From an uncultured Phycisphaera sp. (GTDB lineage Bacteria > Planctomycetota > Phycisphaerae > Phycisphaerales > SM1A02), in assembly GCA_937919685.1 (NCBI GenBank), contig CALFOM010000134.1, forward strand, positions 1 through 45,020: 45,020 nucleotides of DNA. Reading direction: 5' to 3'. Made by a program: the position numbers and the translations under genes. The stretch's first letter is position 1. Each line of letters opens with the position of its first letter. This document shows positions 6,224-10,377 of this stretch, one piece after another. A model generated the notes under the pieces. The model ran no database searches, was not told the origin of the DNA, and was given only the letters and a program-made list of their open reading frames with translations.

Positions 6224-7516
6224 ATGGGAACCACCAGAAACCGCTTCTTCATCCTGATTCTTTTGACCGTCTGGAATTCCGCCGACGGGGGAAACGGTTT
6301 GAACTCAAGTCCCAGCGCCGACCAACGGATCTCGAATGAGATCGACGCTCTTCGAGCGGAGATCGACGAATACCGCTCGGCCGTCACAGAAACTCCGATC
6401 GACGCCGTGCGACGGGAAGAAGTTCGGAATCTCATCATCGATGTTCTGGAAGATTCGCGAGGCCGGACCTCTTTCACCGACCGGCCGTGGAACCAGGTTG
6501 CCTCGGCGGACGGCTTGTTCACCGTCGAGGCTGAGGTATTCATCCAGTACGACTGGCTTCTGAACTCCACCCCGGGCGAGCACACGCAATACGGCGCGGA
6601 TCTCAATACGGTCTGGCTCACACTGAGCGGCACGGTCTTTAGTCCGGCATGGAGTTACGGTATCTCAACCTCCATCTACTCGGGCGGAGTACCCAGCCCC
6701 GAGTACGCGTTCTTGCAGTACGAGTTTGACGACGGCCTTTTCATTCAAGCAGGAATCCTCTCTGAGGCTTTCTCGCTTGAGCAGGCCATCGCCCTCACCG
6801 AACAACTTGGTGCGTCCCTCTCGTATGCCGCCGGACAATTCGACGCGGGCCGTCCTGAGGGCCTGCTGGTCGGAAAACAACTTGATGATCATCGTTTCTG
6901 GTTGACCTTTTCCAATGGCTGGGGACAGAGCGACATCGACCCGCTCCAAAATCAGCGGATGGGCGTCATGGGCCGCTTCGAGTTCAAGCCCTTCGGCGAT
7001 TGGGACTCTCTCTACAGTTTCAATCCCTACCCCGAATCAGTGACCGACGGCCTACTACTTGGAATCGGAGGCGCCTACGACTGGGGCGATTACGACATCA
7101 ATGGACCGTCCGCGATCTCGGGTGATGCGACCCGCGCCACCGTCGATCTCTCCTGGCAGCGTTCCGGGCTTGGACTTATGGCGGCCGGCTACTACCAAGA
7201 CGTTCCCGGCGGTGGTGGTGAGGGCGGGAGGCGATGGGCCGGCGTCGGCCAGGGCGCGTTCTTCCTCACTCCGAACTGGGATGTCTATGTGCGAGGCGAG
7301 TGGGGAACGATCCTCGACAGCGGTCAACAGGATGTCGTGATGGCCACCCTGGGAACCAGTTGGTTCCCCACTGGAGATTCCCGGGTAAAGGTGACCGCCG
7401 AGTTCATCCAATCATGGGGTTCGACTGTCGACTGGCTGGTCGACGGAGACCTCGGAATCCTCCGGGTCGATGAACCCCAGTCGATCATCCGTACCCAGGT
7501 TCAGCTGGCCTTCTGA
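6224..7516 (+). CDS. Outer-membrane porin-like beta-barrel protein
   Basis: 430 residues. There is a signal peptide (RFFILILLTVWNSADG), then a short coiled-coil-like segment (residues 35-75, SNEIDALRAEIDEYRSAV), then alternating-pattern beta strands up to a terminal phenylalanine (TQVQLAF), the classical outer-membrane barrel ending. It resembles the phosphate-selective porin O/P-like group, with stretches such as YSFNPYPESVTDGLLLGIGGAYDWG and repeated W/Y-rich strands. Likely role is passive solute uptake; specificity is unknown. It is divergent from the SGNH operon (84-bp shared upstream region). Its last 105 bp overlap, tail to tail, the reverse dsbB-like gene. Confidence 0.8.
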   Translation: MGTTRNRFFILILLTVWNSADGGNGLNSSPSADQRISNEIDALRAEIDEYRSAVTETPIDAVRREEVRNLIIDVLEDSRGRTSFTDRPWNQVASADGLFTVEAEVFIQYDWLLNSTPGEHTQYGADLNTVWLTLSGTVFSPAWSYGISTSIYSGGVPSPEYAFLQYEFDDGLFIQAGILSEAFSLEQAIALTEQLGASLSYAAGQFDAGRPEGLLVGKQLDDHRFWLTFSNGWGQSDIDPLQNQRMGVMGRFEFKPFGDWDSLYSFNPYPESVTDGLLLGIGGAYDWGDYDINGPSAISGDATRATVDLSWQRSGLGLMAAGYYQDVPGGGGEGGRRWAGVGQGAFFLTPNWDVYVRGEWGTILDSGQQDVVMATLGTSWFPTGDSRVKVTAEFIQSWGSTVDWLVDGDLGILRVDEPQSIIRTQVQLAF

Positions 7517-8152
7517 GACGTGGCGAAGGCGCTCTGCGGCCCGATGTCGCCGGAACTCATTAAATTCTTCGATGAGCTCATAGTTGGTCGGATCGTCTGG
7601 AAGGAACCAGGTCGTTCCGCTCTCAAAGAATACCGAAATCGCATTCGCCGCAATGACGAGCCCGAGTACCCAGGCGGTCAGTCGAGATGCCACTCTCGGA
7701 CGTCCGACGTGCGTACTGATCGTCATGTATCGGCTCATGACCAGCGTGATCCCGCTGGCCAAGAGAATCGTGCTGAAGACGGTGAACGCCCAGGTGTACA
7801 GGTGGAATCCGAACACTGTGCCGCCGTAACCAGGGTCACCAGGAATAATGTGAAGCAGCACCTGCCGACCGCTGATGAACAGACCGACGAGCGCGGCAAG
7901 AATCGACATGCCGAATCCGGTTGACAGATCTGATTTTGAATCGGACCCGTGAATCGAGGATCGATTGATGATGAACATCGGTCCCACCGCCGCCAAAAGC
8001 ATGGCCATTCGTTGAAGAATGCAGAGCGGGCAGGGAATTTCCTTTCCAAGGAACTGGACTGTGAACGCTCCGAGCACCACACCACAGACGCCGAGGACGT
8101 AGACGTGAAGCAAGACGAACGATGTTCGCTCCCATCCATGCAAAGTCCTCAT
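7412..8152 (-). CDS. dsbB: DsbB-like disulfide bond formation membrane protein
   Basis: DsbB reoxidises DsbA using quinone. The membrane protein has about four to five hydrophobic helices and the first periplasmic CxxC motif in CPLCILQRMAML. The second loop reads LLHIIPGDPGYGG...LYTWAFTVF, with no cysteine where family members carry the second pair, or at least one (HICPG-type). The C-terminus runs about 45 residues past the last helix, and its final 35 residues lie antisense to the end of the porin gene. The ATG at 8152 is preferred: GGAG (8163-8166 on the reverse strand) sits about 9 bp before it, and that same GGAG overlaps the alternative ATG at 8167. It follows the small two-helix protein by 37 bp, a pairing that supports the call. 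Confidence 0.85.
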   Translation of the reverse strand: MRTLHGWERTSFVLLHVYVLGVCGVVLGAFTVQFLGKEIPCPLCILQRMAMLLAAVGPMFIINRSSIHGSDSKSDLSTGFGMSILAALVGLFISGRQVLLHIIPGDPGYGGTVFGFHLYTWAFTVFSTILLASGITLVMSRYMTISTHVGRPRVASRLTAWVLGLVIAANAISVFFESGTTWFLPDDPTNYELIEEFNEFRRHRAAERLRHVSEGQLNLGTDDRLGFIDPEDSEVSVDQPVDSRTP

Positions 8153-8189
8153 ATTCAAGATCTCCATTTTTTGGTCGAGCGGTGAGCGG

Positions 8190-8348
8190 TTAGAAACTGA
8201 GTCCGAGGTCGTCGATCGCGTGATGAAGGAACAGAAGTGTTATGCAGGTCATCGATACTCCAAAGAAGATCAATGCCATCTTTGGCTTCGGCCGGTGGAG
8301 CATGAATACCGTCACCAGAATGAGGATGAAGATGGATGCTGCGACCAA
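8190..8348 (-). CDS. Small two-helix membrane protein, DUF5993-like
   Basis: A 52-residue open frame on the reverse strand with a TTG start at 8348. AAGGAG lies 5 bp before that start, an excellent ribosome site. The peptide begins MVAASIFILILVTVFML, has a basic loop HRPKPK, a second helix MALIFFGVSMTCITLLFL, and ends LHHAIDDLGLSF. Two transmembrane helices and the closing HHxxDxLxLSF pattern match my recollection of DUF5993, a small family found beside dsbB genes. It sits between the M48 protease gene (46-bp gap) and dsbB (37-bp gap), all on the same strand. It probably assists or assembles with the DsbB-like protein. The family name is from memory; the open frame, start signal and hydrophobicity are seen directly. 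Confidence 0.75.
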   Translation of the reverse strand: MVAASIFILILVTVFMLHRPKPKMALIFFGVSMTCITLLFLHHAIDDLGLSF

Positions 8349-8394
8349 GGGTTCTCCTTTTGGTGTGGTTCGGTATCTAGGATGAGGCAGTCAC

Positions 8395-10377
8395 TCAGGA
8401 CGAGACCCGCCCCGGAAGAACCGGGGGCATCGGACAATCGAGGGTCGACGAGAGGGCTCGAAGAAGTTCGACCTCTCCGATCGTCGCCTGACCATCCGCA
8501 CAGATTACATCAACCGCAGCATCGAGCAGGACCGATCGATCCTTCCAGCGAAGTCGTTTCAGTCGATCCATCGCTTGATCGAGCTCCGTCACCGAACAGT
8601 CGTTCCGGCCAGGAAGATCCAGATCGCCGAGTTTCATACGGCGGGCTCCAGCCTGGAAGGCGGCGAACGCCTGTTCCTCGTTTCTGGCGCCACTCCAGGC
8701 AATCATCGCGAGCACGAGCCGGGCGGGCTCCGCAAGGAGTGTGATCGATCGATTCGGGTTCAGGCTTCGTGTTGATTTTCCGCCTGTCAATCGATCGAAG
8801 TGAACGGAAAGGAGACGACCAAGCAGCCATTCGAAGCGATCGATTCGGCCGTCGGCGACCTGCATGGCCTCGACCGCCTGAAGGAAGGCCTTGGAATCGG
8901 ATTTATCCATTCGGGCAAGCGCGGGCATGGCGAGATCGACAAGGACGAGTCGCAGTTCTGGGTTTCCTGACACGAGCCCGGCCACCGTATGTCGAAGTCG
9001 TTGTATTTCTTGGATCGTTGACGAATCCAAAGTCTTGGAAAGCTCCTCGGCCTGAGTATGGCGGACTTTCTGATCTTGATCGACCAGAAGAAGGAGGCAG
9101 ACCGCCTTGGCCCCGATCGTGTCATGGACCGCGCTTCGAACGGTATCCGGGAGCAAAGAGATGAGCACGCGGGCGTACGCGAGATGTTCGGCATCGGCAT
9201 CCCCGAGATGCGAGAGGCTTTCTCGAACTTCATCCGCGCGTCGAACCTCGCGGCTCCTCGATGTTGCCACGCCTGCTGTGGCGGCGAATCCCGCGACCTG
9301 GCCGCTCATTGATGCTGCGTTTGGAACCGGTGGTGCCGCGGCTGAAGGATCGCCATCGATCTGTGGTCGAACGTCTGCCGGTGTTCGATTCTCGATCCGC
9401 GCGATACGTTCGGCTAGAGGCGGATGGGTTGCGAAAGACGTCGACAAGGCGGAGGTGAAGAAGAAGTGTTGAAACTCGCTGGCGGCAGCCTTTTCGATAT
9501 TGTTGGTTTGGAAGCCGCCAATGCGCCGGAGCGCACCGCCGATCCCTGCTGGATTTCGCGTGTAGTCAACAGCGGCCGCATCGGCGAGAAATTCCCGCTG
9601 TCGACTGACTGCCGCCTGAATCAAGCGTGCCGCCAACGTACCGAGTGCGCCGATCGCCATCAGAATAAGTCCCGCCACGATCACGCCGATACCGATCGCC
9701 GGCCCGGAGTTATTCTTGCCGCCGCTCCGGGTGTGAAGCAGTACCGGTCCGATGAATCGGAAGGCGATGTAGCCAATGAAGCCGATCGCCATGATTCCAA
9801 AGATGAGGCCTGTCAGACGGATGTTCAGTTTCATGTCGCCATGCACGATGTGACTGAACTCGTGCGCGATGACACCTTGTAACTCGTCACGCGAGAGTTG
9901 CTGGACACATCCCCGGGTGACACCGATCACCGCGCTATCGAAACCGAATCCGGCCGCGAACGCATTGATCGAAGGATCTTCCATGATGTACACCGGTGGA
10001 ACCGGGCATCCAGAGGCGATCGACATCTCTTCGACAACGTTGAGGAGTTTCCGGAGATCGGGGTCCCGTTCATCCGGATGGACGAGCACGCCTCCCAGAG
10101 CTTCCGCGACGGACTTGCCGCCGGAGGAGAGCTGCGCCATCTTGATCAGGGATCCGAGCAGGATGACCAAGATGGTTCCGCCGCCGACGACCAGCAGGAG
10201 TTCGGGGATCCACCATCCGAGCGGCGTCTCTTCTTCCTGAGAGGAGATCACCACGACGGTGGCGGCCACAAAGTAGACCGCTGCCACGGTTCCCAGCACT
10301 GCCAGCAGAAACAGAACGATCAAACGGCCAGTCTGAGATCTGGCGCGATCCTGATCACCGATGAAGTCCATCACCAT
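8395..10377 (-). CDS. M48-family membrane metalloprotease with long C-terminal extension
   Basis: 660 residues. The N-terminal half is HtpX-like: two helices (20-45 and 57-80), the zinc motif HEFSH (H172, E173, H176), two more helices (190-250), and the third zinc ligand E262 in RQREFLADAAAV. HtpX-type enzymes cleave damaged membrane proteins. The remaining 330 or so residues (from about 330) are soluble. They end in a segment (LLDAAVDVICADGQATIGEVELLRALSSTL) with the look of a TerB-like helical fold, carrying the typical 'DGxxxxxExxLL' pattern. Met1 (10377) and Met3 (10371) are both possible starts; GGGGTGA precedes. It lies 43 bp after the GH35-like gene and upstream of the small protein/dsbB pair, which suggests shared transcription around membrane-protein quality control. 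Confidence 0.88.
   Translation of the reverse strand: MVMDFIGDQDRARSQTGRLIVLFLLAVLGTVAAVYFVAATVVVISSQEEETPLGWWIPELLLVVGGGTILVILLGSLIKMAQLSSGGKSVAEALGGVLVHPDERDPDLRKLLNVVEEMSIASGCPVPPVYIMEDPSINAFAAGFGFDSAVIGVTRGCVQQLSRDELQGVIAHEFSHIVHGDMKLNIRLTGLIFGIMAIGFIGYIAFRFIGPVLLHTRSGGKNNSGPAIGIGVIVAGLILMAIGALGTLAARLIQAAVSRQREFLADAAAVDYTRNPAGIGGALRRIGGFQTNNIEKAAASEFQHFFFTSALSTSFATHPPLAERIARIENRTPADVRPQIDGDPSAAAPPVPNAASMSGQVAGFAATAGVATSRSREVRRADEVRESLSHLGDADAEHLAYARVLISLLPDTVRSAVHDTIGAKAVCLLLLVDQDQKVRHTQAEELSKTLDSSTIQEIQRLRHTVAGLVSGNPELRLVLVDLAMPALARMDKSDSKAFLQAVEAMQVADGRIDRFEWLLGRLLSVHFDRLTGGKSTRSLNPNRSITLLAEPARLVLAMIAWSGARNEEQAFAAFQAGARRMKLGDLDLPGRNDCSVTELDQAMDRLKRLRWKDRSVLLDAAVDVICADGQATIGEVELLRALSSTLDCPMPPVLPGRVSS

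Follow-up and report, generated by a model that had tools for sequence, protein, structure and literature searches.

The locus considered here raises the question of whether a very short open reading frame is a gene at all and, if so, what its product does beside an oxidoreductase of the DsbB type. In the window, that is, the whole stretch of 45,020 nucleotides of DNA that was analysed, a sequence-only reading had described a TTG-started frame of 52 residues with an AAGGAG ribosome site and two membrane helices, located between an M48 protease gene and a DsbB-like gene. All of these elements are indeed present, and the features of the small gene and its two same-strand neighbours are as follows:

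8190..8348, minus strand: DUF5993 gene, 52 amino acids, TTG start, two membrane helices (list of open reading frames, Pfam, dN/dS)
8354..8359, minus strand: ribosome-binding site AAGGAG, five bases 5' of the TTG (sequence)
8220..8225, minus strand: His42-His43 codons, end of helix 2 (alignment of 95 proteins)
7412..8167, minus strand: gene of a DsbB-like (DsbI-type, five-helix) membrane oxidoreductase, 22 bases 3' of the DUF5993 stop (Pfam above its cut-off, NCBIfam)
8395..10377, minus strand: M48 (HtpX-like) protease gene, upstream, not part of the module (Pfam above its cut-off)

The best 15-residue Kyte-Doolittle means of the 52-residue protein are 2.9 and 2.3, as expected for two hydrophobic helices, and in the predicted structure of a relative (locus L028) the DUF5993 helices span residues 2-15 and 21-42. 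The TTG start is supported by the aligned start codons of seven other sequences of the genus, which are ATG in four (L013, L005, L007, L008), TTG in two (L009, L010) and GTG in one (L011). Concerning selection, the sequence-only reading had held that a ratio near 1 in close relatives would speak against the gene. The median dN/dS among eight genus sequences is 0.21 (25 unsaturated of 28 pairs), well below 1, and the median pN/pS of the same eight is 0.37 in frame versus 1.13 and 1.88 when the strand is read in its two other frames. The segment 8190-8348 is a true coding gene with purifying selection on its protein, and a chance open reading frame is ruled out by the Pfam score given below, the dN/dS and the conservation.

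The sequence-only reading had assigned the protein to DUF5993, and this assignment is right: against PF19455 the protein scores 38.6 bits (E 1.2e-9) with a cut-off of 27, its residues 6-52 aligning to positions 4-50 of the 50-position profile. None of the NCBIfam models matched it at E 1, and it is the sole copy found in the window genome, where no second DUF5993 above the cut-off was seen. With its 52 residues, two helices and a tail of the xHxTxxLxLSF kind it has the form of this family of proteins of about 50 residues, and it carries Ile at a tail position where 80 of 95 relatives have Thr. The small gene is thus, TTG start included, an ordinary member of a known but unstudied family, with no material difference from it. 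The literature searched assigns no function to DUF5993, which is mentioned there in one expression table, and no mention of PF19455 was found in it.

Residue conservation was followed in an alignment of 95 DUF5993/DsbB-like pairs (the window, 79 loci from the best 80 of at least 437 confirmed relatives, and 15 others). His43 is present in 94 of the 95 DUF5993 proteins, the exception being L061, and Leu48 in 90, while His42, and with it the HH pair, occurs in 57; a conserved Cys was looked for in the family alignment and none was found. The loop between helices 1 and 2 holds on average 2.5 Lys or Arg and 0.2 Asp or Glu, and 87 of 95 proteins have two or more Lys/Arg there. By the positive-inside rule, positively charged loops are located on the cytoplasmic side. 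The loop is therefore predicted to be cytoplasmic and DUF5993 to have both its N- and C-terminus outside, which would place its ends and its His in the periplasm, on the side of the CPLC motif of the DsbB-like protein.

Of the neighbours, the M48 gene ends 46 bases before the DUF5993 start. Among loci of the genus, it lies ahead of the pair in L001, L005, L007-L011, L013 and L028-L030 (the last three repeat L009, L008 and L005), and at E 1e-6 its protein matched no other of the loci L001-L107, many of which are short. We read this as synteny at the genus level, and the protease, being a neighbour only within the genus, is rejected as a functional partner. The M48 protein extends ca 330 residues past the protease domain, and this part shows only a weak TerB-like match (E 0.18). 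On the other side, a convergent gene at 6224-7516 on the plus strand encodes a protein of 430 residues with a C-terminal Phe, porin-like by eye, which matched no Pfam family above the cut-off and no NCBIfam model; it flanks the pair in genus loci, and at E 1e-6 no other of L001-L107 matched it. In a wider set of 80 loci, described below, a greedy longest-ORF script was used to call the neighbouring genes, and the family scan covered 76 of the 79 nearest proteins downstream and 70 of the 73 upstream. At E 1e-5 the highest count of any one family is 2/76 downstream and 7/70 upstream (GH16), so that the pair looks like a free-standing unit of two genes.

We now consider the pairing itself. The sequence-only reading had placed DUF5993 proteins beside dsbB genes, and an absence of homologues at such genes had been named as the finding that would count against the idea. 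The species genomes were scanned with an alignment of 22 DsbB-like sequences and two peptide patterns, and the best 80 of at least 437 confirmed relatives were used, so that the scan samples this DsbB subtype and not all DsbB. Upstream DUF5993 genes were detected with a home-made profile of 19 sequences from earlier loci. In 79 of these 80 loci a DUF5993 gene lies directly upstream on the same strand; the remaining one, L063, begins at a contig edge and shows no upstream DUF5993. For the four weakest upstream matches (L056, L051, L055 and L061, 13-18 bits) position counts as much as score. A copy in Legionella adelaidensis (29.6 bits on the home-made profile) is absent from the incomplete gene table of that genome; together with the 79 loci it bears out this placement, and homologues do adjoin dsbB genes. 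With the DsbB-like starts chosen by script, the distance from the DUF5993 stop to the DsbB-like start ranges from -7 to 83 nt with a median of 9, being at most 15 nt in 67 and an overlap in 23 of the 79.

The relation holds in the reverse direction as well. A DsbB-like gene adjoins 16 of the 17 DUF5993 loci above the cut-off, and three further loci below it (L019-L021), outside the 17, have no DsbB-like gene. Among 61 related genomes, the window's included, DUF5993 is found in 14 and a Pfam DsbB in 13, all of them among the 14. The exception is G008 (locus L015), which has a DUF5993-like frame of 31.7 bits in a genome without DsbB. This orphan, at 1483-1641 on the minus strand of L015, also has 52 residues and a TTG start, and is flanked by xylulokinase-like and isocitrate-dehydrogenase-like genes, named by eye. 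In G009 a second DsbB is located elsewhere in the genome. Across the phylum, DUF5993 was found in seven of 294 genomes at E 0.001, four of them above the cut-off, with the window's genome counted.

The named hosts of the pair are Planctomycetota, Actinomycetota, Pseudomonadota, Myxococcota and Thermodesulfobacteriota. Plasmids carry it too, and here the name is already in use: four of six plasmid loci annotate a 'DUF5993 family protein' next to a 'disulfide bond formation protein B'. A tblastn search of plasmids with the window DUF5993 protein gave no match, which is a matter of sensitivity because the DsbB search finds pairs on plasmids. No match was found either for the pair of a Salmonella plasmid in complete E. 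coli genomes (distant blastn) or for a Vibrio DsbB-like protein in phages. In Vibrio campbellii (L025, 2807-4465) two DUF5993-DsbB pairs stand in tandem in a stretch without annotated genes.

The distance matrices of the DUF5993 and DsbB-like proteins correlate with r 0.76, the largest value in 2000 shuffles being 0.08, although joint inheritance as one block would give the same correlation. In the genomes examined, DUF5993 nearly always directly precedes one kind of DsbB, and this near-constant position makes a role as a small helper subunit of that enzyme the most likely one. Linkage and co-presence thus strongly suggest the joint function with DsbB that the sequence-only reading had proposed, with the refinement that the partner is the five-helix, DsbI-like type and not DsbB in general.

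The relevant parts of the partner gene are the following:

8021..8032, minus strand: CPLC codons (Cys46, Cys49), first periplasmic loop, both Cys in 95/95
7790..7867, minus strand: conserved stretch Arg101-Trp126 (R..H106..P.GYG..H122.Y.W), where classical DsbB has its helix 3-4 Cys loop
7580..7624, minus strand: tail after helix 5 (ESGTTWFLPDDPTNY), free of Cys here; sister clade with a Cys pair (ECGxxxCPDNP)

Classical E. coli DsbB has a Cys pair in the loop between helices 3 and 4, and has neither a fifth helix nor an upstream DUF5993. The window partner matches PF02600 with 49.3 bits (cut-off 22.1) over residues 19-110 only. It shares with E. coli DsbB (PF02600; 2zuq, 6wvf, 2hi7) the four-helix core and the CXXC and Arg of the first periplasmic loop, but differs in the missing helix 3-4 Cys pair, the extra fifth helix and the DUF5993 upstream. 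Cys46, Cys49 and Arg53 of that first loop are invariant in all 95 proteins, as are Tyr124 and Pro193, and Arg101, His106, His122, Trp126 and Asn175 are present in 94. The second Cys pair of the helix 3-4 periplasmic loop is found in none of the 95, three of which have a single Cys there; the loop instead carries the motif HIxPGDPGYG...HxYTW. The window protein has Cys at 28, 46 and 49 only.

After helix 5, at alignment columns 183 and 189, both residues are Cys in 41 of the 95 proteins and both are non-Cys in 54, among them the window and its genus. Beyond these columns, additional Cys occur in four of the 54, two each in L051, L055 and L062, and in L031 within a fused extra domain. In a maximum-likelihood tree that kept both trait columns (183, 189) and has some long branches, the 41 and the 54 fall on either side of one branch with a support of 100/100, that is, a single change. 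Three proteins labelled Pseudomonadota (L065, L070, L071) lie within the Actinomycetota part, which suggests transfer between phyla. The L048 protein, from a contig titled as a Bifidobacterium breve MAG, nests among Mycobacteriaceae, and that contig is therefore probably mis-binned. In L031, a Gemmataceae MAG, the DsbB-like frame (2231 onward) runs into a C-terminal domain that by eye resembles a glycerophosphodiester phosphodiesterase, a fusion that recalls DsbI with its extra periplasmic domain.

It should be pointed out that the window DsbB-like frame is overlong. At 7412-7550 on the minus strand it overruns the stop used by the aligned genus relatives L010, L011 and L013, owing to a difference in length immediately ahead of the conserved CTCAGAAGGCCAGCTGAAC, and its last ca 36 residues read the convergent gene in antisense. 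This may be an assembly error.

As to the redox context, the draft genome of the window gave no match to DsbA, Thioredoxin_4 or VKOR, the three families searched. Among the 13 pair-bearing genomes, the window's included, DSBA and Thioredoxin_4 were matched in three (G009, G013 and, as a fragment at the start of a contig, G001) and VKOR in one (G013). Missing matches in draft genomes are no proof of absence. VKOR, which is likewise a disulfide-forming quinone oxidoreductase but of a different family, occurs in 23 of the 61 related genomes versus one of the 13 with the pair (hypergeometric P 0.010 by genome and 0.13 by genus), so that a complementarity between VKOR and the pair is only suggestive. 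As the window genome yielded no match to an obvious thiol donor (DsbA, Thioredoxin_4), the members of the window's clade can only be presumed to form disulfides.

Structures were predicted for loci in which the DUF5993 stop and the DsbB-like start share one frame, the stop or stops being read as Gly. The read-through chain of L028, from the window's genus (112 rows, 18 joined), has a mean pLDDT of 87.8 and a pTM of 0.86, with the DUF5993 helices in blocks of pLDDT 93-97, while that of L090, from the Cys clade (73 rows, 15 joined), reaches 85.9 and 0.75. By a hand estimate, a pTM of ca 0.75 is expected for either chain if DUF5993 is unplaced. A docking of DUF5993 on the DsbB-like core is thus suggested by the model for the window's clade, and is not reproduced for the Cys clade in L090. 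Residues 73-201 of L028 superimpose on E. coli DsbB 2zuq_A with Z 11.7 (2.6 Å over 122 residues) and on 6wvf with Z 11.1, the alignment covering barely anything outside model residues 66-210, and the first Foldseek match is 6wvf (E 0.037, probability 1.00). However, unrelated bundles in the same list score Z 8 to 10.6, the latter for a designed bundle, and the aligner itself cautions that a helical-bundle Z under ca 13 may be chance. The structural match alone is indecisive for this reason, and it is the Pfam match that is decisive.

The closest studied system is Dba-DsbI of Campylobacter. As described in excerpts of PMC3167755 and PMC4460558, the C. jejuni dba gene encodes a small membrane protein, lies 11 bp before the gene of an atypical DsbB and is translationally coupled to it, and DsbI has five membrane helices, one CXXC with Arg, no second Cys pair and a C-terminal beta-propeller. 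The window partner shares the five-helix membrane domain without the second pair, the helices being those of the L028 relative. The Campylobacter DsbI model NF050065 is matched by 21 of 22 DsbB-like proteins at E 0.001. The window protein reaches 36.7 bits with a cut-off of 800 on this 498-position model, which includes the C-terminal domain, and its residues 30-193 align to positions 23-185 only, with nothing matching the C-terminal part. The classical DsbB model PRK02110 is matched by all 22. DsbI is not mentioned in the excerpt of PMC4555120, on DsbB Cys pairs, and the literature searched yielded nothing on an operon of DsbB with a small membrane accessory protein or with phytochelatin.

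Taken together, we lean towards DUF5993 being an accessory subunit of the DsbI-type thiol:quinone oxidoreductase encoded just downstream, a reading that we consider somewhat probable. The two closely spaced genes would probably form one transcript, and DUF5993 would be an inner-membrane hairpin with both ends outside and its near-invariant His at the outer face. It would pack on the DsbB-like protein near the CPLC/quinone site, where it could either stabilise the enzyme or help to shape the active site, and electrons would pass from thiols to the CPLC and on to quinone with no need of the shuttle disulfide that DsbB usually has between helices 3 and 4. The subunit reading is backed by the pairing, the tiny gaps, the co-presence, the dN/dS, His43, the topology, the L028 model and the Dba-DsbI precedent; it is weakened by the L090 pTM of 0.75, the low margin in structural Z, the orphan of G008/L015, the failure to match a thiol donor in the window genome and the fact that DsbI is made without dba in C. 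jejuni. A bolder form of it, possible but doubtful in our view, would make DUF5993 an obligate structural subunit of quinone-linked thiol oxidases that form a family of their own. Such enzymes would have no shuttle Cys in the window protein and most of its clade and no recognisable partners of the DsbA, Thioredoxin_4 or VKOR type, the DUF5993 His would sit in the quinone/CPLC site, and target thiols, of proteins or small molecules, would be oxidised directly.

Another option is that the peptide matters little and that DUF5993 is mainly a translated leader, whose translation opens the ribosome site of the dsbB-like gene (translational coupling). The tiny gaps and the overlap in 23 of 79 loci would fit this, and so would the C. 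jejuni results excerpted from PMC3167755: stopping the translation of dba abolishes DsbI synthesis with the mRNA still present, while dsbI driven by a promoter of its own in the absence of dba yields DsbI, which migrates slightly faster. However, the same excerpts report that DsbI made without Dba is intensively degraded in E. coli, and the amino-acid sequence of DUF5993 is under purifying selection, with His43 kept in 94 and Leu48 in 90 of 95 proteins across several phyla. A pure leader would not need such conservation, and we regard this explanation as unlikely. The pair could also be a module for metal or envelope stress, in which the DUF5993 His bind or sense copper or another metal and the DsbB-like protein handles or repairs metal-damaged thiols. 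In the excerpted data of PMC12542790, the DUF5993 gene of Erwinia amylovora EaR2, listed beside spy, is up by 3.35 and 4.83 log2 at 1 and 3 mM copper sulfate in stationary phase, but strain Ea273 shows no induction (-0.64, 0.23). A phytochelatin synthase gene follows one plasmid pair, a nickel/cobalt efflux gene lies three genes upstream of another, and HH occurs in 57 of 95 DUF5993 proteins; yet only one His is near-invariant, and among the 25 most frequent neighbour families listed per side for the 80-locus set no metal family recurs, with one E1-E2 ATPase present. Metal resistance as a general role is thus unsupported by these neighbour families, and the module as a whole seems to us quite improbable. 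Finally, DUF5993 might be a periplasmic docking surface that recruits a putative thioredoxin-like donor to the CPLC in place of the missing shuttle Cys pair. The helix 3-4 pair is missing in 95/95 and the pair after helix 5 in 54/95, DUF5993 is kept in both clades, and its C-terminal tail is predicted to be periplasmic by the positive-inside rule. On the other hand, DUF5993 lacks a conserved Cys and has only ca 10 residues outside the membrane, and the sister clade keeps it in spite of a Cys pair of its own; we consider a docking role very unlikely.

The main result is thus a near-obligate, self-contained pairing, together with the split of the DsbI-type proteins into two clades, one with a relocated Cys pair and one lacking it. 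The latter clade, with no second pair, raises the question of how a DsbB core works without a shuttle disulfide and, in the window genome, without a recognisable DsbA. The almost one-to-one tie to a DsbB subtype in several phyla turns DUF5993 from an orphan family into a testable subunit and, if Dba proves to be related, the poorly understood Dba-DsbI system of Campylobacter would be linked to a far wider group.
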